DNA of 14,568 nt from Dehalococcoidia bacterium (GTDB lineage Bacteria > Chloroflexota > Dehalococcoidia > JAENJB01), in NCBI GenBank assembly GCA_030690705.1, contig JAUYGE010000040.1:1-14568 (forward strand), read 5' to 3'. The translations under genes and the position numbers were made by a program. The number at the start of each line of letters is the position of its first letter. Within the stretch, counting starts at the first letter, position 1. The notes below the pieces were generated by a model. That model did no database searches. It had not been told where the DNA came from and saw nothing but the letters and a program-made list of their open reading frames with translations. Shown here in pieces: positions 699 to 14,568 of the stretch.

Positions 699-1970
699 TT
701 ATTTATCACCAAGTTGAGTTATGCTACTGACCGGTGGTGTAAGGGCTACTATTAGCACGGATACGGCGCTCACGCCAACAAGCGCCAACCAGATTCCCTG
801 GTAGCTGCCCCACTTATCATATACCCAGCCGGCCAGAGCCGGGCCTGTTATGTTCCCCACCATGGTCACACCGAGAGTGAAGCCGTGGACGGTGCCGAAT
901 ATCTTCCTGCCGAAATGCTCCCTCAGCAGAGCTATCCTCATAGTGACACTGGCGCCCCATCCAATACCGAAGAGGAGGAGAAAAGGCAGAATAACCCACA
1001 ATCGCCCCGGAGATACAAAGCTGAACAAGAGCAGGCCCAGGCCCGTCAGAACAAAGCCGGTGGCAGCAGCCCGCTTCTTATCGAGCCTGTCCGCGAACCA
1101 GCCGGAGCTGAGGCGGCCGAGGATGCTTGCCACTGGTATCGCACTGGCTACGAGACTGGAAGACGCTCGACTAATGCCAACGGTGCTCAGATAGGGCATC
1201 ACATGGACCACTACAGCGTTTATGACCATAATCTGACACATAAACGCCGGCGCTATGTGCCAGAACGCCGAGCTCTTCAAGGCTTGTCTTGCTACAATAT
1301 CCACCTCGGGCTTATGCGTCGGTGGATGGCGCTCGTCAATAGCGGAACTCTTGCTTTCGTCACCATCGGGCAAATACCCATGTTGTTCTGGCGTGTTTCT
1401 GATTAGAAGTGACAGCGGCAAGCCTATCAGCCATACACCTAGCCCAAGGCTGAACATGGAGGTGCGCCAACCGTATGTATCAATAAGCGTTGTCACCAAT
1501 GGGACCAGTAGCCCACCCAGGGCGAAGCCGCTCGTGGCTATGCCGGTGGCTATACCCAGGTTTCTCCGGAACCAGTGCACCAGCGTGGTGAGAAACACGG
1601 TGGCGCTGGAGGAACTGATACCTATGGCTATCAGGATGAAAGCCGCATAGAACATGCCAAGGGAATTGATACGGCTCAACAGCACCAGACCCAGGCCGGA
1701 GATTACAATTCCTCCGAACACCAACTTTCTTGATCCCCAGCGGTCTACAAGCATCCCCACTATGGGAGCGAGGAGACCTGTCTCCAGGCCTCGTAGCGAC
1801 GCAGCAAGTGAAATCTGGACATAGCTCCAGCCAAATTCGTTTGCTATCGGTTCAAACACGGCGGTGAAGCCGAAGTGTATTACTCCGGCCGTATATAGCG
1901 AAATAAGGGAACTGGCGCCAACAACCCACCACCCATAGAAAACTGTGGGGCGCTTCGGCTTCACGTACAT
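699..1970 (-). CDS. MFS transporter, monocarboxylate / oxalate-formate antiporter type
   Basis: The product is about 423 residues with a run of hydrophobic segments consistent with 12 membrane helices and a hydrophilic central loop (about residues 205-230, rich in charged residues and prolines). The start 'RPTVFYGWWVVGASSLI' is typical of the MFS subfamily that includes oxalate/formate antiporters and monocarboxylate transporters. The loop between helices 2 and 3 has 'GMLVDRWGSRKLVFGG', the MFS signature G-x-x-x-D-R-x-G-x-R-[RK], repeated in the second half as 'GWFADRLDKKRAAATG'. The transporter probably moves an organic anion or similar solute across the inner membrane; the substrate is unknown. 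Start choice is uncertain: ATG at 1970 is used here, with an in-frame GTG at 1979 nine bases earlier. Neither has a clear ribosome binding site. It is divergent from the molybdenum hydroxylase subunit at 2157, with a 186-base gap that may hold both promoters. Confidence 0.9.
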   Translation of the reverse strand: MYVKPKRPTVFYGWWVVGASSLISLYTAGVIHFGFTAVFEPIANEFGWSYVQISLAASLRGLETGLLAPIVGMLVDRWGSRKLVFGGIVISGLGLVLLSRINSLGMFYAAFILIAIGISSSSATVFLTTLVHWFRRNLGIATGIATSGFALGGLLVPLVTTLIDTYGWRTSMFSLGLGVWLIGLPLSLLIRNTPEQHGYLPDGDESKSSAIDERHPPTHKPEVDIVARQALKSSAFWHIAPAFMCQIMVINAVVVHVMPYLSTVGISRASSSLVASAIPVASILGRLSSGWFADRLDKKRAAATGFVLTGLGLLLFSFVSPGRLWVILPFLLLFGIGWGASVTMRIALLREHFGRKIFGTVHGFTLGVTMVGNITGPALAGWVYDKWGSYQGIWLALVGVSAVSVLIVALTPPVSSITQLGDK

Positions 1971-2156
1971 CGTTTGCACTTAATATAACATATAGTGAAC
2001 ATAGGGAGAGACATCTGGTGTGAGAGTCGAAACTTAAAGAAGGCTGTTAGTGTTCTGAGAAGTCGTGGATTCGATGGGTCCCGCTGCCCTGTTGACAGCC
2101 GCTAGTGTTAGTGGTACAAGAGATAATGATAATCGTCACTCTGAGTGGGATAGTAT

Positions 2157-4445
2157 ATGCCTGAATACTCTGTGCTTGGTCGAGGTGTCGTTCGTACTGA
2201 TGCCCGGGACAAGGTGACCGGCCGGGCCAAATACGCGTCGGATGTGCACTTGCCCGGGATGCTGACAGCCAAGGTCCTGCGCAGCCCCTTTGCGCATGCC
2301 CGCATACTCAGCATCGATACCTCCCGAGCCGAACGGCTGGCGGGGGTCAAGGCCGTAGCCACGGGCCGGGACATCCCCCCGGTGCGCTTCGGCAAGTGGA
2401 TGCTGGACCGCACCGCCCTTGCCCTGGGCAAGGTCCGCCATATCGGGGAGCCAGTGGCGGCAGTGGCGGCAGTAGATAAAGAAACGGCGGAAGAAGCAAT
2501 AGAGCTGATCCGGGTAGAATACGAAGAGATACCTGCCGTCTTCGATCCGTTGGAGGCCATGAAGCCGGGGGCTCCTATTGTCCACGAAGATCTGGATGGC
2601 TACCAGCCCCTACCTCCTCTACGGCAGAGCCAGGGCAACATACTAATACAGGCATGCCTGAAACACGGGGATATGGAGCGGGGCTGGCGGGAGGCCTTTC
2701 TCATCCATGAGGACTGTTACAGTACCCAGCCAGTCTATCACGGACTCATGGAGCCTCATGAAGCAGTAGCGGCGGGGGATTCTGGGGGCAGGGTGACCGT
2801 TTGGAGCCCCAGCAAGGCCCCGTTTGAATTGCGCCGGGCGCTGGCCAGCATCGTCGGGCTGCCCGTCTCGCAGGTGAGGGTCATTAGTACCACCGGCGGG
2901 GGTGACTTCGGCGCCCGGGGTTCTCCCAGCGTGGAGCCTATCTGCATGCTGCTGGCTCAGAAGACCTCCCTTCCGGTGCGCATGTCTCTTACCGTGGAAG
3001 AAGAATTCGTAGGCAGCTACTATCGGGAAGCCGCCACGGTGACCCTGAAGGTGGGGGTCAAAGAGGATGGAACTCTGGTTGCGCTCCAGGGCCGGATTGT
3101 ATTCGATACAGGCGCTTACAGCGATGTGCTGGGGCACATAGGTGGGGCCACCGGCCATCTGGCAGGCCTCTATGATATTCCCAATTTCGATGTAGAGGGT
3201 TGTGTCGTCTACACGAACAATACTCCCCGGGGCCAGTGTCGGGCCCCCAGGACTCCACAGCCGATATTTGCCCTCGAATCCCACATGGACGCTGTAGCCA
3301 GGAAGCTGGGGATGGACCCCATGGACTTCCGCCTCAAGAACGCTGTGGAGGATGGAGATAACCTGCCGGGAAGGGGCCTCTTGCGGAATGCCGGTTTGAA
3401 GCAAACCCTCCATACGGTGGCGGACTATCTGCGCAAAGAAAAGGGAGCGTTGGCACCCTTCCGGGGCTGGGGCATCGCCTGTGGAGAACGGACCCTCACC
3501 CCTGTAGCACAGGCGGGCCCTGCCTCCTCCGCTTACGTCAGAGTCAACGAGGATGGGACGGCTACCCTGTTCAGTGGCATCAGCGAGGTAGGAGGTGGTC
3601 AGTGGACGGCCATGTCGCAGATTGTGGCCGAGGTATTGGGCATTCCTTTCGAACATGTATCGGTGGTGTCCGGCGACACCGAACTTGTTCCTCATGAGGG
3701 GGGCACCGGAGGCAGCCTTACCACAGGGCGGGTGGGCACTTCCGTGAGGCTTGCCGCCGAAGATGCCAGGGGGCAACTGCTCAGCCTGGCAGCGATGAGG
3801 TTGAAAGTTAGGGAAGAGGACCTGGAGATCGGCCGGGGCCAGGTCTATGCGAAGAGGGCCCATGAAACAGCCATACCCATAGCTGACTTGGCTACTGCGG
3901 CCCTCACTTCTCCTGGCGGTCCTATCTTAGGCACAGGAAGACACCTTCGGGAGAAATGGGTGGCGTCCCTGGCCGAAGCAAAGGGCATGGTGGATAGCGC
4001 CCACTACTGTACCCATGCCGCTTGTGTGGAGGTGGACGCTGAAACGGGGCAGGTGCGAGTGCTCAAATATTTTGCCTGCCACGATGTGGGATTTGCCATC
4101 AACCCCCTTCTGGTGGAGGGGCAGATTGAAGGAGGTGTGATTTTCGGCCTGGGCTATGCACTGACGGAGGAAGTCTTAAGCCAAAGAGGCCGGGTCCTCA
4201 ACCCGAGCTTCATGGACTACCACCTGCCCACAGCCCCAAGTCTTCCCAAGATAGAATGTGCCACGATAAGCGTTCCTTCCGGCCTAGGGCCCTTTGGTGT
4301 CAAGGGGGTTGGGGAACCGCCTACTGTGCCCGTGGCTCCGGCTATCGCCAATGCCATCTATGACGCTGTAGGAGTTCGCATCAAGGACCTACCTATCACG
4401 GCGGAGAAGGTCCTCAAAGCCCTTAGGGAGAAAACGTTGCACTAA
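2157..4445 (+). CDS. xanthine dehydrogenase family molybdopterin-binding (large) subunit
   Basis: The 762-residue product has the order of the aldehyde oxidase/xanthine dehydrogenase large subunit: an a/b hammerhead domain first ('DKVTGRAKYASDVHLPGML', about residues 18-35, ending near 'VEYEEIPAVFDPLEA', 120-134), then the molybdopterin-binding domain. Visible cofactor motifs are GGGDFGARG (247-255, the GGGFGxK-like loop), RGQCRAPRTPQ (358-368, the RGxGxPQ-like loop), and GVGEPP (717-722), whose Glu720 is in the position of the conserved catalytic glutamate. These enzymes hydroxylate or oxidise a substrate at a Mo centre and pass electrons through [2Fe-2S] and FAD subunits. The VAYRCSFR loop of form I CO dehydrogenase is absent, so it is not a true CoxL. 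Neither the iron-sulfur nor the FAD subunit is in this window. It has a weak GTGGGA ribosome binding site. It converges with hisB, leaving 19 bases. The substrate is unknown. Confidence 0.9.
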   Translation: MPEYSVLGRGVVRTDARDKVTGRAKYASDVHLPGMLTAKVLRSPFAHARILSIDTSRAERLAGVKAVATGRDIPPVRFGKWMLDRTALALGKVRHIGEPVAAVAAVDKETAEEAIELIRVEYEEIPAVFDPLEAMKPGAPIVHEDLDGYQPLPPLRQSQGNILIQACLKHGDMERGWREAFLIHEDCYSTQPVYHGLMEPHEAVAAGDSGGRVTVWSPSKAPFELRRALASIVGLPVSQVRVISTTGGGDFGARGSPSVEPICMLLAQKTSLPVRMSLTVEEEFVGSYYREAATVTLKVGVKEDGTLVALQGRIVFDTGAYSDVLGHIGGATGHLAGLYDIPNFDVEGCVVYTNNTPRGQCRAPRTPQPIFALESHMDAVARKLGMDPMDFRLKNAVEDGDNLPGRGLLRNAGLKQTLHTVADYLRKEKGALAPFRGWGIACGERTLTPVAQAGPASSAYVRVNEDGTATLFSGISEVGGGQWTAMSQIVAEVLGIPFEHVSVVSGDTELVPHEGGTGGSLTTGRVGTSVRLAAEDARGQLLSLAAMRLKVREEDLEIGRGQVYAKRAHETAIPIADLATAALTSPGGPILGTGRHLREKWVASLAEAKGMVDSAHYCTHAACVEVDAETGQVRVLKYFACHDVGFAINPLLVEGQIEGGVIFGLGYALTEEVLSQRGRVLNPSFMDYHLPTAPSLPKIECATISVPSGLGPFGVKGVGEPPTVPVAPAIANAIYDAVGVRIKDLPITAEKVLKALREKTLH

Positions 4446-4464
4446 CCTGGCTACACCGGTCCTC

Positions 4465-5049
4465 CTACCCCTCAATCACCTCTTTGGTACTGGGCACGCG
4501 GCCCTGGAGGCGTGGGTCTATGCGACAGGCAGAGTCGAGGGCCCGGGCCAGCGCCTTGAACAGCGCTTCGGCTTTGTGATGGTCGTTGTCGCCGCTCATC
4601 ACCCGGGCATGCAGGTTCATCCTGGCCTCGGCGGCCAGCGAGACGAGGAAGTGCCGCACCAGTTCAGCAGGCATCTCTCCTACAGTGAGGTGGGCAAAGG
4701 GGGCATCAATGACGGCGTATCCCCTCCCCCCGAGGTCCACCGACACCATCGCCAGAGCGTCGTCCATAGGCACCACCGCCCAGCCCATGCGGGCTATGCC
4801 CGCCCTGTCCCCCAGCGCTTTGGCGAAGGCCTTCCCCAGGCAGATGGCCACATCCTCCACCACATGGTGAATATCGCTGCCATTCGCCGAGACACTTATG
4901 TCGAACACCCCGTGCCGCGCCAGCTGGTCGAGCATGTGGTCCAGCATCCTCACCCCGGTCTTCATGTCCGACTCCCCACTGCCGTCCAAGCTCAACTCCA
5001 CCCGGATGGAGGTCTCTTTGGTCTCCCGCTTGATGGTGGCTTTTCTCAT
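4465..5049 (-). CDS. hisB: imidazoleglycerol-phosphate dehydratase
   Basis: HisB removes water from imidazoleglycerol phosphate to give imidazole acetol-phosphate, the substrate of HisC. The 194-residue protein is the usual length for the single-function enzyme, without the phosphatase domain of E. coli HisB. It shows the metal-binding motifs of the family: [12 protein letters not shown] (36-47), DIHHVVEDV (59-67), and [13 protein letters not shown] (154-166). The C-terminus is [10 protein letters not shown]; most family members I know end PSTKG(V/T)L, so Glu190 replacing Gly is a small oddity. The ATG at 5049 is preceded by a GAGAGG site about 8 bases upstream, which sits directly next to a strong hairpin (5071-5099). 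It is the last gene of the operon, separated from hisC by 187 bases filled with repeats. No other his genes (hisA, F, H, I) are in the window. Confidence 0.96.
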
Positions 5050-5070
5050 TTGTTCAACCTCTCACCCCTG

Positions 5071-5099
5071 CCCCTCTCTCCTTCCCAAGGAGAGAGGGG
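5071..5099. repeat. strong palindrome in the hisC-hisB spacer
   Basis: On the plus strand, arms CCCCTCTCTCCTT and AAGGAGAGAGGGG (13 bp, perfect) flank a CCC loop. In the hisB message the hairpin would lie just upstream of the hisB ribosome binding site (GAGAGG, about 5058-5063). The same core, CCCCTCTCCTT/AAGGAGAGGGG, recurs at 13014-13046, so this is an interspersed repeat family rather than a locus-specific leader. There is no T-run on either side, so a simple intrinsic terminator is not indicated. Confidence 0.75.
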
Positions 5100-5170
5100 G
5101 GATTTTGTCATAGGGGTTGCGCCCCTCTGGAACACCGCGCGTTAAGCAACCTCGCTCGAGGCTGTTTCCT

Positions 5171-5230
5171 GAGCAATCCGGTCCCCCGTCCCCAACGGAT
5201 TGCTTCGGCACTCTGTGCCTCGCAATGACA
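5171..5230. repeat. interspersed GCAATCC / CCTCGCAATGACA repeat, copy 1 (hisC-hisB spacer)
   Basis: An inner inverted repeat GAGCAATCCG (5171-5180) and CGGATTGCTTC (5196-5206) is followed by the end module CCTCGCAATGACA (5218-5230). The left end module is degenerate, with 'gcaacctcgctcgagg' at about 5146-5161. The same modules occur at 6339-6433 and 10556-10596. The element ends only a few bases past the hisC stop codon (5237-5239). Confidence 0.75.
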
Positions 5231-5236
5231 GACTAC

Positions 5237-6322
5237 TCACTCTACCTTCTTCAAGGTCTCGATGACCGCATCGGTGTGCTCCGGCTTGCCGATGCTGATA
5301 CGTATGCAGTCCTTCAGGACAGGCGTATCGAAGTAGCGGATGAAGATGCCCGCCTTTTGCAAAGCCTCATATGTCTTATGGGCCCGGCCACCGGAGACCG
5401 AGCAGAGGATGACGTTGGCCTGCGAGGGATAGGGCTTGAGAAACGCCAGCTCGCTGAGCTTCTCAAAGAGCCTCCCCCTCTCGGCGATGAGCTTCCTCAC
5501 CACCGCGCGGAGGTTTTCGATGTCCTTCAAGGACTCCAGGACCGCCACCTGGGCCGCCGCGTTTATGTTGTAGGGTTGCTTTATCTTCATCAAGTACGGC
5601 GCCAGCCTGGGAGAGAAGATGCCGTACCCCACGCGCAGCCCCGCCAGCCCGGCCCACTTGCTGAAGCTCCGCAGCACTATCAAGTTGTCATGCCTGGCCA
5701 CCAGGGGCGCCACCGTAACCCCGCTGAACTCGTAATAGGCCTCGTCCACCACCACCACCACTCCGGTCTCCAGCAGGTCGAGGATGTCCTTCTCCGCCGT
5801 GATGTTGCCCGACGGGTTGTTCGGCGAGGTGACGAAGATGACTTTCGTCCGGCTGTCCACCGCTTTCTTGACGGCACCGGCATCGATGGAGAAGTCACCC
5901 CTGCGTCTTATGTCAACCGTTTTCCCCCCGCATATCTCGGTACAGAAGGGGTACATGCCAAAGGTGGGCGGGCAATTGATCACGCTGTCCCCAGGCTCCA
6001 GAAAGAGCCGCAGCACCAGGTCTATCAGTTCGTCGCTGCCGGCCCCCCCTATGAGGTAGTCCTCTCCCATGCCAACGTAGCCCGCCAGGGCCGCCCTGAA
6101 CACCTTCTGCTCCGGGTCGGGGTAGATATGATAGTGCGCATAGCGCTGGAGAGCCTCCTTCACGCAAGGCGAGCAGCCGTAGGGGTTCTCGTTCCCGTCG
6201 AGCTTGATCACCCGTTCCTCCGGCACCCCGAAGCGCTCGCTCAGGATATCCACCGGTCGAATCGGCGTGTAGGCCCGCATCGCCGCGAAGCCCGGGCGGA
6301 CCAGCTTTTCTACATCAAACAT
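5237..6322 (-). CDS. hisC: histidinol-phosphate aminotransferase
   Basis: HisC is a PLP enzyme that transfers an amino group from glutamate to imidazole acetol-phosphate to make histidinol phosphate. The 361-residue product matches the usual length and fold-type I order: substrate-side motif LDGNENPYG (41-49), GAGSDELID (93-101), NNPSGN (168-173), DEAYYEF (193-199), and the PLP-lysine region SFSKWAGLAGLRVGYG with Lys222. The start ATG at 6322 lies 17 bases past the hisD stop and has no good ribosome binding site ('GAGTAGCAGTT' precedes it). The region just upstream is a palindromic repeat, which may have changed the original spacer. Aspartate and aromatic aminotransferases of the same fold are the alternatives, but the his operon context and motifs make HisC nearly certain. 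Confidence 0.95.
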   Translation of the reverse strand: MFDVEKLVRPGFAAMRAYTPIRPVDILSERFGVPEERVIKLDGNENPYGCSPCVKEALQRYAHYHIYPDPEQKVFRAALAGYVGMGEDYLIGGAGSDELIDLVLRLFLEPGDSVINCPPTFGMYPFCTEICGGKTVDIRRRGDFSIDAGAVKKAVDSRTKVIFVTSPNNPSGNITAEKDILDLLETGVVVVVDEAYYEFSGVTVAPLVARHDNLIVLRSFSKWAGLAGLRVGYGIFSPRLAPYLMKIKQPYNINAAAQVAVLESLKDIENLRAVVRKLIAERGRLFEKLSELAFLKPYPSQANVILCSVSGGRAHKTYEALQKAGIFIRYFDTPVLKDCIRISIGKPEHTDAVIETLKKVE

Positions 6323-6338
6323 AACTGCTACTCATTCG

Positions 6339-6433
6339 GTCATTGCGAGGCCCCGCGCGATGGGGCCGAAGCAATCCGCCCTGGTGCTCCGGATTGCTTC
6401 GGCGTCCGCCTGCGGCGGCCTCCTCGCAATGAC
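6339..6433. repeat. interspersed GTCATTGCGAGG repeat, copy 2, forming the hisD 3' end
   Basis: This is a complete element. Outer arms GTCATTGCGAGG (6339-6350) and CCTCGCAATGAC (6422-6433) are perfect 12-bp inverted repeats; inner arms CCGAAGCAATCCG (6366-6378) and CGGATTGCTTCGG (6390-6402) are perfect 13-bp inverted repeats. The spaces between outer and inner arms are themselves GC-rich and partly palindromic (GGCCCC-like on the left, GCCTGCGGC on the right). The hisD reading frame runs through the whole element on the minus strand and stops at the TGA (6340-6342) inside the terminal arm. Confidence 0.9.
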
Positions 6434-7773
6434 AGGTTGGATAATCTCATCGCCACCGCCTGGCCGTGAGCCTCCAGTCCCTCAGCCTCGGCCAGCGTCC
6501 GGGCCACCGGCCCGAGGGCCTTGAATTGCCTCGCGTCCAGGGCCACCACGTGGCTCACCCTGAGAAAATCGGACACGCCCAGCGGCGAGCTGAAACGCGC
6601 CGTACCGCCGGTGGGCAGGACATGGCTCGGTCCGGCCACGTAGTCCCCCATGGCCACCGGGGACCACTTCCCGACGAAGACGGCGCCGGCGTTTCTGACC
6701 TTCAGCGCCCACTCCTCAGCGCGCCGCACCATGAGACAGAGATGCTCCGGAGCATAGAGCGCGGCCAGTTCCACCGCCTCGGCTACGTCGTCTACCAGGA
6801 CGATGCGGCCATTTTCTTCAAGAGACTGCGCGATGATGTCCCGACGTCCCGATGGTAATCGGGAGGACTTCTCCAACTGGCGCTCCACCGCCTGCTCCAC
6901 CTTCTGCGCCAGCCGCGCGGAAGGGGTTACCAGTATGGCTGAAGCCATAGTATCATGCTCCGCCTGCGCCACCATCTCAGCCGCGCAGAGAGCGGGCTCA
7001 GCCGTCCCGTCGGCGATGATGACCACCTCACTGGGCCCATGCAGCCCGTCAATGGCCACCTGACCGAAGACCTGCTTCTTGGCCAGGACCACAAAGATAT
7101 TCCCGGGCCCGCATATCTTGTCCACGCGGGGCACCGTTTCCGTGCCATAGGCGAGGGCGGCGATAGCCTGGGCGCCGCCGAGTTTGAATACCCGGGCGAC
7201 CCCGGCAAGGCGGGCGGCCGCCAGAGTAGCTGTGGGGATAGACCCGTCGCTTCGAGGCGGAGTGGTGAGGACAATCTCCCCGACACCGGCCACCTTCGCC
7301 GGCACCGCCGTCATCAATACCGTCGAAGGATAGCTCGCCGTGCCACCGGGTGCGTACAGGCCGACCCTCTCCAGGGGCTGCACCATCTGGCCAAGCCCAG
7401 CATGGCTGAACTCAGAAGGTCCATGTTCTCTGGACATCTCATAGAAGCGGCGGATACGCTCTGCGGCCATCTCCAGCGCCCGGAGAACGGAGCGATTCAC
7501 CTTGTTGCAGGCGGCTTTCCACTCCCTCTCGCTCACCTCCAAACAGTCCAGCTCCACCTTGTCCAGCCTCAGGGTATACTCGCGGAGGGCGACGTCTCCC
7601 CTTTCCCTCACATCGGTCACGATGCGCTCCACCAATTGCTCCGCGGAAAGGTCCTCCCCGAAGGTTTCCTTTATGCGCCGCCTCAAGGCAGGCGGCGTCT
7701 CATAGCCGTCCCCGGAGCGTCGGGGACGGGTGAGGAGCCTCGCGGCCGCAGCGAAGCCGCGGATGGTCTTCAT
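6340..7773 (-). CDS. hisD: histidinol dehydrogenase with repeat-encoded C-terminal tail
   Basis: HisD oxidises L-histidinol to L-histidine in two NAD-dependent steps. All landmarks are present: zinc ligands Gln270 and His273 in AQAEHD, Asp377 in GDYVAGPSH, His436 near the end (EGLEAH), and the catalytic Glu343-His344 pair in APEHL. CGPGNIF (221-227) and GPSEVVIIAD (246-255) are also typical. The protein is 477 residues, longer than the usual ~430. The normal end is near 'AVAMRLSNL' (about 447); the last ~30 residues, SLRGGRRRRTPKQ onward, are strongly basic and encoded by the repeat at 6339-6433. Two further palindromes lie in the frame: one at residues 15-23 and one at about 304-309, where 'SRLPSG' looks like a small insertion compared with the family. 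The start ATG overlaps the hisG stop by 4 bases and has a strong GAGGAGG site. Confidence 0.95.
   Translation of the reverse strand: MKTIRGFAAAARLLTRPRRSGDGYETPPALRRRIKETFGEDLSAEQLVERIVTDVRERGDVALREYTLRLDKVELDCLEVSEREWKAACNKVNRSVLRALEMAAERIRRFYEMSREHGPSEFSHAGLGQMVQPLERVGLYAPGGTASYPSTVLMTAVPAKVAGVGEIVLTTPPRSDGSIPTATLAAARLAGVARVFKLGGAQAIAALAYGTETVPRVDKICGPGNIFVVLAKKQVFGQVAIDGLHGPSEVVIIADGTAEPALCAAEMVAQAEHDTMASAILVTPSARLAQKVEQAVERQLEKSSRLPSGRRDIIAQSLEENGRIVLVDDVAEAVELAALYAPEHLCLMVRRAEEWALKVRNAGAVFVGKWSPVAMGDYVAGPSHVLPTGGTARFSSPLGVSDFLRVSHVVALDARQFKALGPVARTLAEAEGLEAHGQAVAMRLSNLSLRGGRRRRTPKQSGAPGRIASAPSRGASQ
6847..6864. repeat. TCCCGAT palindrome inside hisD
   Basis: On the plus strand, arms TCCCGAT (6847-6853) and ATCGGGA (6858-6864) flank the loop GGTA. 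It encodes part of 'SSRLPSGRR' in HisD (residues about 304-309), between ERQLEK and the conserved SLEENG segment. Family members I recall go almost directly from ERQLEEL to PRREIA, so about five residues here look inserted. Confidence 0.8.
7706..7729. repeat. CCGTCCCCG palindrome inside the hisD 5' end
   Basis: Arms CCGTCCCCG (7706-7714) and CGGGGACGG (7721-7729) form a perfect 9-bp inverted repeat around a 6-base loop. It encodes residues 15-23 of HisD, in the variable stretch after the conserved MKTIRGF start. It is related to the GTCCCGA/TCGGGAC palindromes elsewhere in the operon but has one more C/G pair. Confidence 0.7.
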
Positions 7774-9212
7774 TGAGCCTCCTCTCTCAGGCCACGACGC
7801 AGGGCTTCCACTAAAGTGGAGAGCCCCCTCTGAACGCCTTCACGGCGGACGGCGCCGGCGTTGCCGATGAGGCAGGCCGACGATTCGAAGAGGGTGTCGA
7901 TAATCTTGAGCTTATGCTCGGCCAGCGTCTTCCCCGTCTGGGTGTTCTCGATGAGGAGGTCGGCGTCCTCGGGCAGAAAGGCCTCGGTAGCCCCCCAGGT
8001 GGGAATGACGCGGTATGGAGAGAGATGGTTCTCCCGGGCATAGCTATCAGCGATGTTCACATACTCGGAGGCAATCCGCAGCGGCGTCTTGCCCCTGGCC
8101 TTCATCCATTGGCGAAGCTCGGCGGGGCCAGCCACCGGAAGGTCGCCTTTCACCACTGCCACCACTCTTACCAGGCCGAATCCCAGAGTAAGGATCTCCT
8201 CCACCGGACTGGTGGGAAACTGGCAGCGGTGCTCCCGCAGCCAGTCCTGTCCCGTGATAGCCGCCGCGAAGTTCCCGTTGGCCACCTGAAGAGGTAAGTC
8301 CTGCGGACGTATCACTTTGCAGGCCACACCCGCCTGGGCAACTTTCGGGCGACGGCTGCCCGTGGAGTACCCTTCGATACCAACCCCGGCCTTGTCCAGG
8401 AACTGCGCCGTCGGCGGTTGCTGGTGCCCGTCGGGCAGGCCCAACCAGAGCGTCCCGTCCTCGTCGGGACCCTTCCTCCCGGTCTTCCTCGCAGCCGCTG
8501 GAATGCGGGCCAGTGCGCCGGCCAACCGCCGGGTTGACTCAGTCCCGATGGCATCGGGACTCCCGTCTCGGGGGGTCGGAGCCCTCTCCAGAGTGCCCAG
8601 TATCTCACCCATGTCTTCAGCCTCCCAGCTATCTCTGTTGGCTATCAGACAAGCGCTGCTCGACAGGACTGTGCCGAGGGAGAGCAGCCCTTCAGGCGGC
8701 CTCTCCGAAGTTCCCTGAGATATCAACACCAGATCGGCGTTTTCGGGAGGATAGGCCTCAGCACCTCCCCAGAGAGGGAAGATGCTAAACCTCCTCAGCC
8801 GCAACTCCAGCGCCAGCCTTTCGGCCACATTTGGATACTCGCTGGCCAGGCGCACAACCCCCGAATCTCCGAAACCACCGGACGCACTGACCGCCGCTAC
8901 CACCTGGCTTTGCCCATAGCCCAGGTCGCGCACCTTGACCAGGGCGCTGGCGGGATACCTCACCCGGTGCTCCTCCATCCAGTCCAGCCCGCATATCCCC
9001 AGGTCGTAGTTGCCGACGGCTACCTGCACAGGTATGTCCTTCTCGTGAAAGACCTTCCCCTGGAGATAGGGGAACCTGTTAGACGAAAAACGGTAGCGCC
9101 TCAATCCGTCGCCGTAGCCGTCCAGGTCCCACCCCAGCAGGGCCGCCAAGGCGGCGGTGCCCGCCTGGAGCCTTCCCTTGGGCAACGCCAATCTCAGAAG
9201 CGACCTAGCCAC
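7770..9212 (-). CDS. hisG: ATP phosphoribosyltransferase, tandem two-domain form
   Basis: HisG joins ATP and PRPP to start histidine synthesis. Short-form enzymes are about 210 residues; this one is 480 and holds two homologous domains. Domain 1 (about 1-212) has LALPKGRL (8-15), DIPVQVAVGNYDLGICGLDWMEEHR, RLASEYPNVA (121-130) and SSSACLIAN. Domain 2 (about 250-480) has DLPLQVANGNFAAAITGQDWLREHR, RIASEYVNIA (379-388), ADLLIENTQTGKTL (417-430) and SSACLIGN. Domain 1 lacks the TGxTL PRPP loop (SQGTSERPPEG instead); domain 2 has LPDGHQ (259-264) where PKGRL is expected. The linker (213-250) contains palindrome-encoded peptides SPDAIGT (218-224) and GPDEDGT (248-254). The start is a GTG at 9212, overlapping the hisZ end by 8 bases, with a GAGG site 7 bases upstream. 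hisZ upstream fits a short-HisG octamer-type system. Domain identity is secure; how the catalytic sites are assembled is unknown. Confidence 0.92.
   Translation of the reverse strand: MARSLLRLALPKGRLQAGTAALAALLGWDLDGYGDGLRRYRFSSNRFPYLQGKVFHEKDIPVQVAVGNYDLGICGLDWMEEHRVRYPASALVKVRDLGYGQSQVVAAVSASGGFGDSGVVRLASEYPNVAERLALELRLRRFSIFPLWGGAEAYPPENADLVLISQGTSERPPEGLLSLGTVLSSSACLIANRDSWEAEDMGEILGTLERAPTPRDGSPDAIGTESTRRLAGALARIPAAARKTGRKGPDEDGTLWLGLPDGHQQPPTAQFLDKAGVGIEGYSTGSRRPKVAQAGVACKVIRPQDLPLQVANGNFAAAITGQDWLREHRCQFPTSPVEEILTLGFGLVRVVAVVKGDLPVAGPAELRQWMKARGKTPLRIASEYVNIADSYARENHLSPYRVIPTWGATEAFLPEDADLLIENTQTGKTLAEHKLKIIDTLFESSACLIGNAGAVRREGVQRGLSTLVEALRRGLREEAQ
8425..8437. repeat. TGCCCG palindrome at the start of HisG domain 2
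   Basis: TGCCCG-T-CGGGCA is a perfect 6-bp inverted repeat. It encodes LPDGH (259-263), at the place where a HisG domain normally has PKGRL. It may be chance in GC-rich DNA, but two other palindromes lie within 130 bases. Confidence 0.4.
8452..8470. repeat. GTCCCG palindrome at the start of HisG domain 2
   Basis: Arms GTCCCG (8452-8457) and CGGGAC (8465-8470) flank the loop TCCTCGT. On the coding strand it reads GPDEDGT (248-254), at the join of the inter-domain linker and domain 2. Confidence 0.65.
8541..8561. repeat. AGTCCCGAT palindrome in the HisG inter-domain linker
   Basis: Arms AGTCCCGAT (8541-8549) and ATCGGGACT (8553-8561) form a perfect 9-bp inverted repeat around GGC. On the coding strand it encodes SPDAIGT (218-224), nearly the same peptide as the one encoded by the hisZ palindrome at 9466-9486, in the same reading frame relative to the element. 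Confidence 0.85.
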
Positions 9213-10452
9213 GGATGAGCCTCAGAAGTTCGGCCACTGAAGCTGCGCCTGTCAGCGTATCACGGTCCTGGTCCGTCAACAGAAATGGCGGGGACTGGTC
9301 ACGCACCAGAAGTTTCCAGCGATGCGTACGGGAGCGCGAGTGGCTACGCCCGCCCAGGTCGATCTCCGCCACATAGCCGGCTTCCTGAATCCGTCGCTGA
9401 GCCTGGAAACCCCTCCTTACCACCACCGGCTTCTCCGACGCTACTTGCACCAGAACGCCTGGCCCAGTCCCGATTACGTCGGGACTCACATAGTCCATCA
9501 GCCGGCTGATGTAGAGGGCAAAGCCGGCTGCCGACCGTTTCTTGCCCCCGAGCAGGGGGATAAGCTCGTCGTACCGCCCACCGCCACCTATCTTCACATC
9601 GCCCGCCAGGAACTGGAAGATGATACCAGTATAATACTCAAAGCCCCTCCCCGAGGCGATATCTATCTCGTAGTCCAGCTTCAGAGCGTCCAGCATCTCA
9701 GCCACCCTCATGAAATCCCTCAGGTTGTCTCTGAAAGCGGGCGCAACAGGTTGCAGCGAAGCCTCCAGGTTCTTCAGAAAACCGTGCTTTTTGCCCTTCA
9801 GGCGCAGAAGCTGCGAGAGGGCCTTTTGCACCTCGGGCTGGCAAGCTGCCGCCGCCAGGGCCGGCGCCTCTCCATCAAGAAGCTCCTCCAGAAGATGCGA
9901 GCTCTCCCCCCAGTTCGCCCCGAGCTCATCGAGGTAGGCCTTGATCAGCCCCGCATGCGACAGCTTCACAGTCACCTTGCCTATCTTCAGCCTTGAGAGT
10001 ATGCCCATTGCCAGCTGGATGAGTTCAACCTCTCCAAGCCCGCCCTTGCCAGGGGTGCCCAGCAGCTCAACGCCACCCTGCCAGCGCTCCCTGGCCTCGC
10101 GACCGGTCTCGTCGTAGCCGAAGGTGTTGATGAGGTAAAAAAGACGCGCCAGCCCCTGGTCCTGCAGGTTGTCTATGTACAGGCGGGCCGCCGGAATAGT
10201 GCCATCCGGCCGCAATGCCACTCTCTCCCCACTCCACCCATCCCAGTCCAGGAAAGAGTAGACCCGTCGCAGCATGCCCGGCGTGAGCGTGCCCGCAGAG
10301 GTGAACAGGTGCAAGTACTCGATGGTCGGCGTCCGCACCTCTTCATAGCCCCAGCTCAGGCAGCTCTCCCGGAAGGCGCTTTCTATCAGGCGGAAAGCAG
10401 CCATGTCCGCCGCCAGAAGGTCCTTGCCTCCCTTATATCTCGAAATCTTCAT
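9205..10452 (-). CDS. hisZ: ATP phosphoribosyltransferase regulatory subunit
   Basis: HisZ is a catalytically inactive relative of histidyl-tRNA synthetase that binds short-form HisG, activates it and mediates feedback inhibition by histidine. The 415-residue product has the class II synthetase-like core: YKGGKDLLAADM at the start, RVALRPDGTIPAARLY (78-92; motif 2 region), RGFEYYTGIIFQF (269-281) and GGGGRYDELIPLLGG (289-303; motif 3 region). A C-terminal part (about 330-415) resembles a degenerate anticodon-binding domain, so the length approaches that of HisRS. The position as first gene of the his operon, overlapping hisG, argues for HisZ over a true synthetase. SPDVIGT (323-329), between core and tail, is encoded by a palindrome. 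The ATG at 10452 has only a weak AAGGA site about 11 bases upstream. Confidence 0.88.
   Translation of the reverse strand: MKISRYKGGKDLLAADMAAFRLIESAFRESCLSWGYEEVRTPTIEYLHLFTSAGTLTPGMLRRVYSFLDWDGWSGERVALRPDGTIPAARLYIDNLQDQGLARLFYLINTFGYDETGREARERWQGGVELLGTPGKGGLGEVELIQLAMGILSRLKIGKVTVKLSHAGLIKAYLDELGANWGESSHLLEELLDGEAPALAAAACQPEVQKALSQLLRLKGKKHGFLKNLEASLQPVAPAFRDNLRDFMRVAEMLDALKLDYEIDIASGRGFEYYTGIIFQFLAGDVKIGGGGRYDELIPLLGGKKRSAAGFALYISRLMDYVSPDVIGTGPGVLVQVASEKPVVVRRGFQAQRRIQEAGYVAEIDLGGRSHSRSRTHRWKLLVRDQSPPFLLTDQDRDTLTGAASVAELLRLIRG
9466..9486. repeat. AGTCCCGA palindrome inside hisZ
   Basis: Arms AGTCCCGA (9466-9473) and TCGGGACT (9479-9486) flank the loop TTACG. It encodes SPDVIGT (residues 323-329) in a linker between the HisZ core and its C-terminal part. 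Compare the hisG linker copy at 8541-8561. Confidence 0.85.
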
Positions 10453-10483
10453 GCCGGCACATATCCTTATTTAGAATCGGCTA

Positions 10484-10511
10484 ATTCTACCGTAATTGAC
10501 CTGTACGTTCA
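10484..10511 (-). promoter_or_regulatory. candidate sigma-70 promoter for the his operon
   Basis: On the minus strand, TTGAAC (10506-10511) and TAGAAT (10484-10489) are separated by 16 bases, giving 4/6 and 5/6 matches to TTGACA and TATAAT. Transcription would begin near 10477, leaving about 25 bases of leader before the hisZ ATG at 10452. No histidine-rich leader peptide, T-box or attenuator is visible in so short a leader. Confidence 0.5.
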
Positions 10512-10555
10512 AAGGAGGACACCCGGGGCCGCTCAGCAACCCTCATCCCCGAGGA

Positions 10556-10596
10556 CGGATTGCTTCGTCCCGATTCTATCGGGCCTCGCAATGACA
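10556..10596. repeat. interspersed CGGATTGCTTC / CCTCGCAATGACA repeat, copy 3 (right half), with TCCCGAT cassette
   Basis: This has the right-hand modules of the element at 6339-6433: CGGATTGCTTC (10556-10566) and CCTCGCAATGACA (10584-10596). Between them lies a short palindrome, CCCGAT-TCT-ATCGGG (10569-10583), matching the palindromes found inside hisD, hisG and hisZ. In copies 1 and 2 this middle slot holds different sequence. Confidence 0.8.
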
Positions 10597-10627
10597 GCCC
10601 CTTCTTGTCATTCCGAACCCCTCACTA

Positions 10628-10750
10628 TGTCATTCTGAAGGAACGAAGCGACTGAAGAATCTCTCCTCAGGACAGCACTCTGGATACCCACCACACTGTA
10701 TTGTGAGATCCTTCGGCCTCCGCCTGCGGCCGGATGGCCTCAGGATGACA
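10628..10750. repeat. TGTCATTCTGA ... CAGGATGACA intergenic repeat
   Basis: The left end reads TGTCATTCTGAAGGAACGAA (10628-10647) and continues to GAAGAATCTC; the right end starts GAGATCCTTCGG (10705-10716) and ends CTCAGGATGACA (10739-10750). The ends are imperfect inverted copies (TGTCATTCTGA against TCAGGATGACA). A GC-rich hairpin lies inside the right half (GGCCTCCGCCTGCGGCC). This resembles a widespread bacterial intergenic repeat type, by my recollection of the consensus. Confidence 0.65.
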
Positions 10751-10775
10751 GAGGGGCCTCTGTAGCTGCGATGGC

Positions 10776-10836
10776 CTCAGAGCCTGCTCCTTCGGCAGGC
10801 TCAGGACAGGCTCTGAGTGGAACGAAGGGATGACAT
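10776..10836. repeat. CTCAGAGCCTG hairpin repeat
   Basis: Arms CTCAGAGCCTG (10776-10786) and CAGGCTCTGAG (10807-10817) are perfect 11-bp inverted repeats enclosing CTCCTTCGGCAGGCTCAGGA. The tail GAACGAAGGGATGACA (10820-10835) matches the end module of the neighbouring GATGACA repeat, so this is probably part of the same composite. Confidence 0.65.
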
Positions 10837-10864
10837 TTTCGGAGAAATCTCATTGAACTCTAAA

Positions 10865-10893
10865 TTGCTTCACTCATCCAGGTAGCTTATAAT
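10865..10893 (+). promoter_or_regulatory. candidate promoter for nfeD-slipin
   Basis: A perfect -10 box TATAAT (10888-10893) lies 17 bases after TTGCTT (10865-10870), a half-matching -35 box. Transcription would start near 10900. This means an ATG at 10900 could only be used leaderless, which helps choose the downstream start at 10921. Confidence 0.6.
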
Positions 10894-10905
10894 GCGTCAA
10901 TGTTT

Positions 10906-10917
10906 GAGGGAAAGAGG
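10906..10917 (+). promoter_or_regulatory. ribosome binding site deciding the nfeD start
   Basis: GAGGG (10906-10910) and AGAGG (10913-10917) precede the ATG at 10921 and lie after the alternative ATG at 10900, so they can serve only the later start. Confidence 0.55.
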
Positions 10918-10920
10918 CGG

Positions 10921-12225
10921 ATGCGTCGAATTCTAACCCTTTTCGTTTTCTTCCTCTGGCTCGTCCCTGCCGTGCTGGGGACAGGAGTCCGGGCTGCCTC
11001 GGGGGATGTCTATGTCCTGCGGGTGAGCGGCACCATAGTGCCGGTGATAGCGGACTATATCGACCGGGGTATCGACAGAGCGGAGTCCCAGCAGGCCGCG
11101 GCGGTGATCATCGTACTGGACACACCCGGCGGGCTCCTCGATTCGACCAAGAAGATCGTCGAACGCATCATTGATTCCAGGGTGCCCGTGGTGACCTATG
11201 TATCCCACTGGGCGGGATCGGCCGGAACCTTCATCACCCTGGCATCCCACGTGGCCGCCATAGCCCCCGTCAGCCGCATAGGCGCCGCCAGCCCCGTGGC
11301 TGTTGGCCCCGGGGGGGAACAGCAGATTTCTCCCACCATGGAGAGGAAGATTACCGAGGACACCGCTGCCTGGATCAGAGGCATAGCCAGGCTGCGTGGG
11401 CGGGATGAGGAGAAGGCCGAACTGGCGGTCCGCGAGGGCAAGTCCTACGACGTGGATGAAGCCATACAGTACCACCTGGCCGACTTCAAGGCAGACAGCC
11501 TTGACGAGCTCCTCTCCCTGCTTAACGGACGGGAGGTCACCCTGGCCTCTGGGGAAAAGGTAACCATCAACACCGCAGGTAAGCGCCTCATAGAGGTGAA
11601 GCAGAGCCAGGTGGAGCAGTTCCTGCATACCATCAGCAACCCCAACATCGCCTATGTACTGCTCACCCTGGCCATGGTCGGCCTCATCGCCGAGTTCTCC
11701 AACCCCGGGATGATCTTCCCCGGCGTAGCCGGGGGTATCAGCCTGCTGCTGGCCTTTTACGCGCTGGGAGTGCTCGATGCCTACTGGGGAGGTGTCCTCC
11801 TCATCATGCTCGGCTTCGGCCTTTTCATCGCCGAGCTCTTTGTGATCAGCCATGGTATTCTTGCCGCCGGAGGAATCGCTTCCTTCGTCACCGGCTCCCT
11901 TCTTCTCTTCAGTGGGAGGTCTCCGATGTTTCAAGTAGATCCCTGGCTCGTCGCTCTTACGGCCTCACTCGTGGCCGCCTTCTTCATCTTCGTCATCAGC
12001 GCCGTTGTGCGGGCGCACCACCGTCCGGCGGTCACCGGAAGAGAAGGACTGATAGGGCAGAAAGCGCGCGTGGTGACCCGGATCGCGCCTGAGGGCACCG
12101 TCATGGTGGAAGGGGAACTATGGACAGCCACGGCTGAAGATGGTATAGTCGAGCCCGGCCAGTGGGTGGAGGTGATCCAAACAGAGGGATTGAGGCTGAA
12201 GGTGAGGAAGGCCCAGTCAACTTAG
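10921..12225 (+). CDS. NfeD family membrane-bound ClpP-class serine protease
   Basis: The product is about 434 residues from ATG 10921 (441 if ATG 10900 is used). It starts with a signal peptide, MRRILTLFVFFLWLVPAVLG, likely cleaved near VRA. A ClpP/SppA-like protease domain follows: VIIVLDTPGGLLDST, then WAGSAGTFITLASH with the nucleophile serine (residue 100) and MERKITEDTAAWIR with the general-base lysine (143), the Ser-Lys dyad of the archaeal homologue PH1510-N. The C-terminal half has four or five hydrophobic segments (about 235-370) and ends in a soluble OB-fold NfeD domain (GLIGQKARVVTRIAPEGTVMVEGELW). This is the long NfeD form. It is followed after 13 bases by a slipin gene; the pair is a known operon in which the protease cleaves the slipin C-terminus and may take part in membrane quality control. 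Confidence 0.93.
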   Translation: MRRILTLFVFFLWLVPAVLGTGVRAASGDVYVLRVSGTIVPVIADYIDRGIDRAESQQAAAVIIVLDTPGGLLDSTKKIVERIIDSRVPVVTYVSHWAGSAGTFITLASHVAAIAPVSRIGAASPVAVGPGGEQQISPTMERKITEDTAAWIRGIARLRGRDEEKAELAVREGKSYDVDEAIQYHLADFKADSLDELLSLLNGREVTLASGEKVTINTAGKRLIEVKQSQVEQFLHTISNPNIAYVLLTLAMVGLIAEFSNPGMIFPGVAGGISLLLAFYALGVLDAYWGGVLLIMLGFGLFIAELFVISHGILAAGGIASFVTGSLLLFSGRSPMFQVDPWLVALTASLVAAFFIFVISAVVRAHHRPAVTGREGLIGQKARVVTRIAPEGTVMVEGELWTATAEDGIVEPGQWVEVIQTEGLRLKVRKAQST

Positions 12226-12238
12226 TTAGGAGGAAGTC

Positions 12239-12988
12239 ATGTACATCATTTTGGTGGTTATCATAGCCCTGATCCTTGTCTCCATGTCCGTCAAAGTGTT
12301 CAAGGAATACGAAAGGGGCGTCATGTTCCGCCTGGGGAGGCTGGTGGGAGACAAGGGACCGGGCCTGTTCCTCATCATACCCTTCGTAGACCAGATACAG
12401 AAGATAGACCTCCGCGTAGTGACCATGGATGTCCCGGCTCAGGAAGCCATCACCAGGGACAATGTCACTGTGAAGGTCAACGCCGTGGTTTACTTCAGGG
12501 TGGTGAGCCCGAATGACGCCGTTACCAAGGTAGAGCACCACATCCGGGCTACCTCCCTCATCGCTCAGACCACTCTCCGCAGCGTCCTGGGGCAGTCAGA
12601 GCTGGATGAACTGCTCTCCCAGAGGGAGAAGCTCAACCAGAGACTGCAAAAGGCCATTGACGAGCAGACCGAGCCCTGGGGCGTAAAGGTCAGCCTGGTG
12701 GAAATCAAGGACGTGGAGCTTCCTCCCTCCATGCAGCGGGCGATGGCCGCCCAGGCAGAAGCCGAGAGAGAGAGACGGGCCAAGATAGTCCATGCCGAGG
12801 GCGAAGCCCAGGCGGCGGAGAAGCTGGCCCAGGCGGCCAAGATCATCTCGGAGTATCCTGGGGCCCTCCAGTTGCGCTACCTTCAGACCCTCACCCAGAT
12901 CAGCACGGAGAAGACCAATACCATAATCTTCCCCTTGCCGATGGAGCTGTTTAAGGCCTTTCTCCCGCTCTTAGAAGCCAAGAAATAA
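12239..12988 (+). CDS. slipin / stomatin-like SPFH-domain membrane protein
   Basis: The 249-residue product begins with one membrane segment ([18 protein letters not shown]), followed by the SPFH (band 7) domain: [52 protein letters not shown], and [22 protein letters not shown] charged coiled-coil stretch follows ([32 protein letters not shown], about 164-195), then a hydrophobic C-terminal tail. Slipins form large oligomeric cages on membranes and partner with NfeD proteases. The near-end hydrophobic segment '[16 protein letters not shown]' is the kind of region cleaved by the partner in archaea. It has a perfect AGGAGG ribosome binding site (12228-12233) five bases before the ATG, in an operon with the upstream nfeD gene. 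Confidence 0.95.
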
Positions 12989-13013
12989 GGACCTTTGAAA
13001 CCTCATCCCTTTG

Positions 13014-13046
13014 TGTCCCCTCTCCTTCAATGAAGGAGAGGGGACA
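13014..13046. repeat. 33-base near-perfect palindrome after slipin
   Basis: Arms TGTCCCCTCTCCTTCA (13014-13029) and TGAAGGAGAGGGGACA (13031-13046) are perfect 16-bp inverted repeats around a single A. It lies 26 bases after the slipin stop and could halt transcription of nfeD-slipin, though no T-run follows. It shares its core with the hisC-hisB spacer palindrome at 5071-5099. Confidence 0.8.
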
Positions 13047-13096
13047 TCTGTTTGCAGAAGCAGTGCCTGGTTGCACCGGAGAGGGTTACCTCGATG

Positions 13097-13131
13097 AGTC
13101 CGTACTTCGACAAGCTCAGTACGAACGGACT
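13097..13131. repeat. AGTCCGT hairpin with CTTCGACAAGCTCAG core
   Basis: Arms AGTCCGT (13097-13103) and ACGGACT (13125-13131), with GTAC on both inner sides, enclose TTCGACAAGCTCA. The CTTCGACA-GCTCAG-ACGAACGG pattern resembles a repeat widely scattered in bacterial genomes, by recollection. Confidence 0.65.
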
Positions 13132-13136
13132 GTCAT

Positions 13137-13174
13137 CTCCCGTTCGCCCTGAGCCAGTCGAAGTGGAACGGGAG
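13137..13174. repeat. CTCCCGTTC hairpin with CCTGAGCCAGTCGAAG core
   Basis: Arms CTCCCGTTC (13137-13145) and GAACGGGAG (13166-13174) are perfect 9-bp inverted repeats. The core is an inverted version of the core at 13097-13131, so two copies of one repeat family lie head to head between the convergent slipin and birA genes. Confidence 0.7.
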
Positions 13175-13219
13175 CGTCCATGGCTATGATGCTGAAGAAC
13201 CAGCTAAGTAGTAGCGAGG

Positions 13220-14026
13220 CTAGACCTGCAAGGTTACATCCCCCGCCACCACCCTTATCCTCCGTCCGTCGGGGCAAACCAGGATAAGCCCGCCCTCGTT
13301 GTCTATGGCCTCGACGACCCCCTTCTCCACGGCGCCCCCTTCACTGAACTTCACGCTCACCTCTTTGCCTACTGTTTCCACCCTCTTGAGCCATGGCCCA
13401 TAAACCTTCCTCCCCGCCTTCACAACGAGGTAAAGACTCTCCATCTCCAGAAGAAGCTGCGACAGCAGCTCCAGCATGTTGACCTCTTGGCCCGTCTCCG
13501 CCGAAAGGCTGGTGGCCGTGGAGGCGATCTCGGGCATGGCGGCCGGAGAGAAGTTGACGTTTAGACCTATCCCCACCAGGGAAAAATCGAGTGTCTTACC
13601 CCGGAAGATGTTCTCGATGAGAATACCGCACACCTTCTTCCCGTTAATGAGCACATCGTTGGGCCATTTTATCTGCGGCCTGAGCCTGGTGACCGACTCG
13701 ATGGCGTTGACGACTGCCAGGGAAGCCAGCATGACCAACTGGGGCAAATGCTCCTCAGATGGGGGACGGAGGACTACCGAAAACGACAGGCTGCCGCGAG
13801 GTGAAAACCAGGTCCTTTCCAACCGCCCCCGCCCGGCCGTCTGCTCGTCCACGGCGATGACGGTCCCCTCGGGCACCCCCTTTTCGGCCTCCTCCCTCGC
13901 CTTGTCCATGGTGGACGGGAGGGAAGGATAGCACAGCATGTGCTGGCCCATCAGCTTGGTGGACAGCTTCAACCTGCCCAGAATCACCGCCGAGCAAAGA
14001 CTGTTGTTTACCGTCTCCAATTGCAT
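13220..14026 (-). CDS. birA: biotin--[acetyl-CoA-carboxylase] ligase
   Basis: This enzyme activates biotin to biotinyl-AMP and attaches it to the carrier lysine of biotin-dependent carboxylases. The 268-residue product has the catalytic motifs GRGRLERTWFSPRGSLSFSV (65-84), KWPNDVLING (120-129), KVCGILIE (131-138) and VGIGLNVNF, then the small SH3-like C-terminal domain (KEVSVKFSEGG ... GGLILVCPDGRRIRVVAGDV). There is no N-terminal winged-helix DNA-binding domain as in E. coli BirA, so it should be a single-function ligase (group I type) rather than a repressor. The ATG at 14026 has a good AGGAGAG site. It starts 21 bases past the pgk stop, so both are probably co-transcribed. The downstream region holds the repeat island at 12989-13219. 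Confidence 0.95.
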   Translation of the reverse strand: MQLETVNNSLCSAVILGRLKLSTKLMGQHMLCYPSLPSTMDKAREEAEKGVPEGTVIAVDEQTAGRGRLERTWFSPRGSLSFSVVLRPPSEEHLPQLVMLASLAVVNAIESVTRLRPQIKWPNDVLINGKKVCGILIENIFRGKTLDFSLVGIGLNVNFSPAAMPEIASTATSLSAETGQEVNMLELLSQLLLEMESLYLVVKAGRKVYGPWLKRVETVGKEVSVKFSEGGAVEKGVVEAIDNEGGLILVCPDGRRIRVVAGDVTLQV

Positions 14027-14047
14027 CCACTCTCCTGTTCTGGAACC

Positions 14048-14568
14048 CTATTTCTTGTCCTGCAGAGCAGCCACCCCGGGCAGGGTCTCCCCCTCAAGAA
14101 ATGTCAGGGAGGCGCCGCCACCCGTAGATACATGAGTCATCCTGTCCTTTAGCCCCATATTAACCACGGCCTCCGCCGTCGAGCCTCCACCCACTATCGT
14201 CGTCGCCTTCAGGCCGGCCAGCAGTTCTGCCATGGCCCGCGTGCCTGAGGCAAAGCCCGGCACCTCGAATATCCCCATCGGTCCGTTCCACAGGACCGTC
14301 TTACATTTCCTGAGCTCCGCCGAGAACGACTTCACAGTCTCCGGCCCGATATCCACCACCAGGCTGCGAGCAGGTATGGCATTGGCCCGCACCGTCTGGG
14401 ACGGCGCGCTGCCATCGGGTTTCTCCGAGACGACGAAGTCGACCGGCAGGAGCAGGCGAACCCTGCTTTCCTCGGCCTCCCGCATCATCTTCTCCGCCCA
14501 CACCATCCGGTCAACTTCCACCAGCGAGCCACCCACCTCTAGTCCTTTCACCTTCAGGAAGGTAGCAG
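14048..14568 (-). CDS. pgk: phosphoglycerate kinase, C-terminal part (runs off right edge)
   Basis: PGK transfers phosphate between 1,3-bisphosphoglycerate and ADP in glycolysis. The visible ~173 residues are the C-terminal, nucleotide-binding half. The frame stays open to the window edge (ATFLKVKGLEVGGSLVE at the start, matching the family's KANTFL-KGxxVGxSLVE). Motifs include LLLPVDFVVSE, VLWNGPMGIFEVPGFASGTRAMA, VGGGSTAEAV and HVSTGGGASLTFLEGETLPGVAAL. Many PGKs have GGGDS/T where this one has GGGST, a variant I believe also occurs in other Chloroflexota. An in-frame GTG at 14551 is an internal codon, not the true start. It is followed 21 bases later by birA. Confidence 0.96.
   Translation of the reverse strand, partial: ATFLKVKGLEVGGSLVEVDRMVWAEKMMREAEESRVRLLLPVDFVVSEKPDGSAPSQTVRANAIPARSLVVDIGPETVKSFSAELRKCKTVLWNGPMGIFEVPGFASGTRAMAELLAGLKATTIVGGGSTAEAVVNMGLKDRMTHVSTGGGASLTFLEGETLPGVAALQDKK

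Follow-up and report, generated by a model that had tools for sequence, protein, structure and literature searches.

In the class Dehalococcoidia (phylum Chloroflexota), sequence comparison indicates that HisG, the ATP phosphoribosyltransferase of histidine synthesis, often consists of two fused copies, with a recognisable loop for phosphoribosyl pyrophosphate (PRPP) only on the second. We examined this arrangement in a 14,568-nucleotide stretch of a Dehalococcoidia draft genome (contig JAUYGE010000040.1 of assembly GCA_030690705.1, positions 1 to 14,568; hereafter the window), where the fused gene, hisGG, lies on the minus strand at 7770..9212 and comprises 480 codons from a GTG start. An earlier reading of this DNA (the original prediction) had proposed an uninterrupted 480-residue frame holding two paralogous HisG domains. 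From 9212 to 7770 there is indeed no internal stop, and in profile searches each half exceeds the curated PF01634 cut-off of 25.5 bits (in the genome search, half 1 at 8589-9044 with 77.1 bits and half 2 at 7797-8309 with 114.6 bits), the halves being 33% identical within the window protein. Against the TIGR00070 hisG model (cut-off 75.75) the entire protein reaches 215 bits; its only Pfam domain is PF01634, in two copies, and the C-terminal regulatory domain (HisG_C) of the long form, HisG-L, was not found in it by Pfam. As in the short-form HisG-S/HisZ systems of P. arcticus, A. baumannii, L. lactis and T. maritima, the regulatory domain is absent and a hisZ-like gene is adjacent, the HisZ partnership itself being predicted; unlike HisG-S, which has one HisG domain per chain, the protein has two. 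hisGG is a real, conserved variant of short-form HisG.

Half 1 (approximately residues 6-211; 8580..9197, minus strand) is a HisG domain with PKGRL at residues 11-15, a putative Arg56-type strand at R38-x-Y40-R41, and SQGTSERPPEG at the place of the PRPP loop. It is joined by a variable linker of unconserved sequence (approximately residues 212-252; 8457..8579, minus strand) to half 2 (residues 253-480; 7773..8456, minus strand), a HisG domain with PDGHQ at 260-264, R302, and a PRPP loop (E422-T426-G427-x-T429) that overlaps TGKTL at 426-430. Between profile matches the linker spans 22-50 residues (median 29) among 105 open reading frames (ORFs), two of which are the window itself. Mean column identity was 0.55 for half 1, 0.65 for half 2 and 0.42 for single-domain HisG, the latter set being taxonomically broader. 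Half 1 is conserved rather than decaying, and the DGH, R302 and PRPP-loop columns of half 2 are invariant or nearly so.

Motif asymmetry between the halves

Motifs were counted in the numbering of P. arcticus HisG, with the offset checked on R32, R56, R73, C115 and D179, all of which fell on the correct letter. Rows representing the window itself (L001, L002), second copies (L125, L130, L134, L136, L138) and a truncated locus (L017) were dropped beforehand, and near-identical rows were retained (L033 is 96% identical to the window, and L143 99% identical to L167). The PRPP loop motif, [DE]-x2-x-[TS]G-x-[TS], was identified in half 2 of all 104 fusions, in half 1 of none, and in 61 of 61 single-domain HisG rows, many of which are close relatives of one another; the loop acid at column 176 (E or D) followed the same division, 104/104 against 0/104. 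The proposal that only one half possesses the loop extends from the window to the whole set of fusions. Half 2 also retains D30-G31-H32, R73, T180 and G181 without exception (104/104), and is very probably the catalytic half.

The companion proposal, that the two halves have lost different motifs, holds for the missing loop of half 1; the supposed loss of PKGRL from half 2 is weak, as this motif varies in ordinary HisG, where K30 occurs in 23 and R32 in 11 of 63 single-domain sequences. Half 1 has K30 in 90 of 104 fusions and R32, as well as the complete KGR, in 76, with TGD, AGD, RGD or similar in place of KGR among the deep-branching fusions. Because neither K30 nor R32 is constant among single-domain sequences, the DGH of half 2 (residues 261-263; window 8424-8432) does not prove that a site was lost, and is instead a fixed peculiarity of that half.

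A loose Arg56-type motif, [RK]-x-[YL], was found in half 1 of 96 of the 104 fusions, in half 2 of 12, and in 47 of 61 single-domain sequences; both the motif and the ranges searched were our choice, the range being widest for half 2.

Distribution and origin of the fusion

A profile built on the fusion gave a single match covering 391 or more of its 476 positions (E ≤8.3e-152) in 76 of 155 genomes of the class, with fragments in three (G418, G383 and G477) and nothing in nine; single-domain HisG matched approximately one half of the profile, with a best E of 8.2e-37. The architecture predicted from one contig was recovered throughout much of the sample, and both domains occupied a single frame in 80 of 80 loci retained from 273 relatives. 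A protein search returned 3496 relatives of wide length range, the best 120 of these 3496 being 461-497 residues long, and a deep-branching query added at least 120 further relatives of 451-532 residues. Among 147 genomes of the class, comprising the window's own draft and others with completeness of 90% or more, and tallied by hand, PF01634 matched twice in 88, three times in one, once in 51 and not at all in seven; two matches do not always signify a fusion, as G315 (below) shows, and G397, scored with a single match, proved on re-search to have two in one frame. Three of the 76 genomes had been flagged for a stop codon within the profile match (G320, G426 and G154) but possess uninterrupted ORFs of 470, 479 and 452 codons, respectively.

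Twelve genomes assembled as single contigs (G007, G020, G030, G039, G048, G074, G106, G186, G249, G263, G298 and G343) each have one full-length fusion and exactly two PF01634 matches, making the fusion their sole HisG; the shared frame is listed directly for the first eight and follows from the counts for the last four. A second, ordinary HisG was not found in these twelve genomes or in the window's own draft. From this status as sole HisG, and from its position within the his operon, we infer that hisGG converts ATP and PRPP to phosphoribosyl-ATP.

The fusion and a single-domain HisG occur together in G361 (L145/L146) and G474. A further locus of the same family (L163) has the single-domain gene only, ahead of hisD-hisC-hisB, and it is possible that these cases capture a replacement in progress. 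Three genomes of one genus (G256, G374 and G409; family f7, genus g23), of 95% completeness, gave no HisG match, while the fusion is present in G242 and G391 of that genus; histidine synthesis has possibly been lost in the three. Elsewhere in the phylum the fusion was sought and rejected: among the matches listed, two per genome were seen in five genomes from outside the class, and in none of these five did the pair share a frame. Two metagenome-assembled genomes labelled Deltaproteobacteria (L034 and L047) also have the fusion, at 56% identity to the window and resembling Dehalococcoidia loci; they are either mislabelled or recipients of a transfer.

Phylogenetic reconstruction from 70 rows (the separated halves of 22 fusions, plus 26 single-domain HisG) placed half 1, half 2 and single-domain HisG each on one side of a branch, with bootstrap/SH-aLRT (Shimodaira-Hasegawa-like approximate likelihood ratio test) supports of 100/100, 99/97 and 100/99, respectively; the same clades emerge from two further trees, a quick one of 109 rows and another of 69. 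Since each half forms one clade, a single origin with both halves inherited together fits the trees; these are unrooted, and the two halves would be sisters only with a root placed among the single-domain sequences. In one draft genome (G315; 470 contigs, 94% complete, outside the counts of 104 fusions) each half has its own gene; the two lie side by side, with hisZ before and hisD after them, comprise 223 codons (ATG start; L173, 856-1527) and 226 codons (GTG start; 1517-2197), and overlap by 11 bases. The first encodes PKGRL and SRSYR with no PRPP loop, and the second PDGH and TGATL. The two genes fall within the half-1 and half-2 clades, and as the first is not at the base of half 1 (69-row tree, with modest support there), a later split appears more likely than an unfused ancestor. 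The pair is either a natural two-gene version or an assembly frameshift; its sequences suggest that half 1 can be a separate subunit.

A candidate one-site pseudo-heterodimer

ATP phosphoribosyltransferase is a textbook case of allostery, and its dimer is believed to operate with arginines that cross the subunit interface. PMC9734150 describes Arg56 of one P. arcticus subunit crossing the dimer to the PRPP pyrophosphate in the other, and for the same enzyme activity is given as falling 25-fold in R32A and 42-fold in R56A. Arg73 is described as reaching the ATP gamma-phosphate of the neighbouring subunit (PMC10998830).

With a loop on half 2 and a crossing arginine on half 1, the fusion would possess what a pseudo-heterodimer with one site needs. 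Half 2, holding the PRPP loop, would catalyse; half 1, lacking the loop for the ribose-5-phosphate of PRPP, would serve as its obligate dimer partner, and its Arg56-type strand would probably extend across the interface into the half-2 site, there to hold the leaving pyrophosphate. The HisZ encoded by the adjoining gene would probably activate the fusion and carry histidine inhibition, as in known short forms. On this reading there would be a single active site per chain, compared with two in an ordinary dimer. It is likely that half 1 pairs with half 2 and completes its site, to which the separate genes of G315 lend a little favour, and the motif counts make the strand R38-x-Y40-R41 the more likely complement of the half-2 loop. 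The pseudo-heterodimer with one working site foreseen by the original prediction is thereby a likely outcome in its general form; for the full scheme, a covalent pair with one site on half 2 completed by half 1 and with HisZ as activator, we estimate a probability modestly better than even. The broader proposal, that much of the class runs histidine synthesis on an obligate single-chain pseudo-heterodimer, with one active site for its two domains, the catalytic loop kept on one half, the leaving-group arginine supplied by a dead half and HisZ acting on an asymmetric pair, we regard as evenly balanced.

Mean-field direct coupling analysis of 344 fusions (effective number 172), in which 36,608 inter-half windows were ranked by top-3 mean z, was suggestive of a signal between the half-1 strand and the half-2 loop: residues 36-42 against 424-432 ranked first, at 5.81, and the same block reached 1.79-4.09 when 15 coupling-free alignments were simulated on the tree. 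When only the 329 rows having Y40 and T429 were used, the block scored 4.99, with 32 windows equal or higher. Neither the half-1 PKGRL (2.4) nor the half-2 strand (2.1) stood out in coupling to the half-2 loop.

Several observations weigh against a strand of half 1 completing the half-2 site. The block was picked after the ranking was seen, and in the 15 simulated alignments the highest-scoring window of all reached 4.96-6.10. At a pseudocount of 0.3 the block was not at the top, with 46 windows equal or higher and a maximum of 7.47; mutual information lent it no support, with a rank of 8008 of 36,608 and a score of 2.47, where 47 simulations averaged 2.11 and peaked at 4.29. The tree likewise shows few co-changes: Y40 and T429 share two branches, R39 and L430 six (3.3 expected), and L37 and L430 two (2.2 expected). 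The main sequence evidence against the one-site pseudo-heterodimer is Arg73, whose pattern is the opposite of that of Arg56, with arginine in 104/104 of half 2 and in half 1 only 12/104 (histidine in 65, glutamine in 20). Half 2 also has a conserved R287-R288-P289 of its own.

These last features, along with the P-loop, would allow half 2 to be complete in itself, and the variable length of the linker need not force the halves of one chain together. Half 2 could accordingly pair with half 2 of a second fused chain to form two ordinary sites, leaving half 1 as a separate regulatory or scaffold module; we consider this unlikely, as just 12 of 104 fusions have an ordinary Arg56-type motif in half 2 and the coupling of that half's own strand to its loop does not stand out. 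A lower probability still attaches to half 1 being a converted site, binding a nucleotide or pyrophosphate without ribose-5-phosphate and tuning the half-2 site. The KGR retained in the half-1 cleft of 76 of 104 fusions would accord with this, as would the position of that cleft, which, if the halves pair, would lie opposite the invariant R302 and the RRP motif in half 2; the replacement of KGR in deep-branching fusions argues against any ligand site common to the family.

The original prediction had raised the possibility of a composite site, with PKGRL of half 1 facing TGKTL of half 2 in a shared pocket. Both motifs are placed in the window as described, but the complementarity is unsupported and very improbable, because PKGRL is no constant of HisG, is replaced in half 1 of deep-branching fusions and couples weakly to the loop; judging by the HisG fold, moreover, PKGRL would be turned towards the loop belonging to the same domain. 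As for an assembly error, frameshift or decaying pseudogene, the window does derive from a fragmented draft (281 contigs, 73.9% complete), but the recurrence of the frame in 76 of 155 class genomes and the conservation of both halves leave this next to no probability, and for the family as a whole it was rejected, since independent genomes share the frame.

Gene neighbourhood and relation to known systems

The operon is complete inside the window, in the order hisZ-hisGG-hisD-hisC-hisB, and all of its genes are on the minus strand: a hisZ-like gene, paralogous to histidyl-tRNA synthetase (9205..10452; PF13393), hisGG, hisD (6340..7773; PF00815, 527 bits), a hisC-like aminotransferase gene (5237..6322; PF00155) and hisB, encoding imidazoleglycerol-phosphate dehydratase (4465..5049; PF00475). 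hisGG overlaps the hisZ-like gene by 8 bases and hisD by 4. The HisZ-like protein of the window scored nearly equally against HisS and HisZ models, under the cut-offs of both TIGR00443 hisZ and TIGR00442 hisS. Among 103 fused loci, 99 have a hisZ-like gene upstream of the fusion. When eight fused genomes were searched with a HisZ model, seven (G007, G030, G082, G301, G334, G361 and G405) had one copy in the his operon and one elsewhere, consistent with HisZ plus a separate HisS; the window's own draft genome gave the operon copy and a 20-bit scrap only. Compared with the HisZ of the window, hisZ products scored 199-411 bits in 23 fused loci and 71-80 bits in four single-domain loci of the class, with no hisZ match in the other three single-domain loci. 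Owing to this difference in scores, HisZ may travel with its HisG type.

Beyond the features noted above, half 2 resembles short-form HisG-S in its PRPP loop and R73-type arginine, and the fusion differs in that one of its domains lacks the loop and DGH replaces the PKGR part in the other. With HisG-L it shares the PF01634 catalytic domain, but its extra length is a second catalytic-type domain instead of the C-terminal regulatory one. In the Protein Data Bank the tandem architecture occurs in none of 20 matched sequences, the longest of 352 residues. The fusion recalls the gene elongation of hisA, hisF, hisB and hisD, likewise cases in which paralogous modules arose by tandem duplication, fused and diverged (PMC7284861). 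The accessible part of that article proposes these elongations to be older than the earliest phylogenetic divergence, and names hisG once, within an operon name. Unlike them, the hisG fusion was found in one class only among the genomes sampled, and one of its halves has lost the substrate loop. hisG is also involved in other his fusions, such as hisZ-hisG (PMC9413887), which joins it to a different gene and not, as in hisGG, to itself. A table of his fusions in PMC1963479 includes two Dehalococcoidetes genomes.

No earlier report of a tandem HisG was found among the open-access papers listed, judged by title and start of abstract, and the accessible portions of PMC9413887, PMC1963479, PMC10138114, PMC7284861, PMC10795190, PMC10998830 and PMC5415358 make no mention of one. 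The variant is apparently undescribed, a novelty that is provisional because subscription papers and preprints fell outside the search. A homodimeric enzyme seems here to have been turned into a built-in mismatched pair, an instance of pseudoenzyme evolution inside a housekeeping enzyme that has spread through a broad bacterial class, with the same halves present as separate genes in one genome. With loop and putative crossing arginine divided between its halves, the natural fusion would provide a clean test of residues acting across the interface and of HisZ signalling to a single site, since either half can be altered independently of the other.

An Rfam scan of the window gave no match at the gathering threshold. 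On the plus strand at 10900-12988, we identified two genes, both under family cut-offs: one with weak SppA/Clp-fold matches, which we take to be NfeD-like, followed by one for an HflK/HflC-like stomatin-type protein. At 2157-4445, a 762-codon gene encodes a subunit of molybdenum-hydroxylase type (4-hydroxybenzoyl-CoA reductase / xanthine dehydrogenase alpha), which scores under every family cut-off listed and is convergent with hisB.

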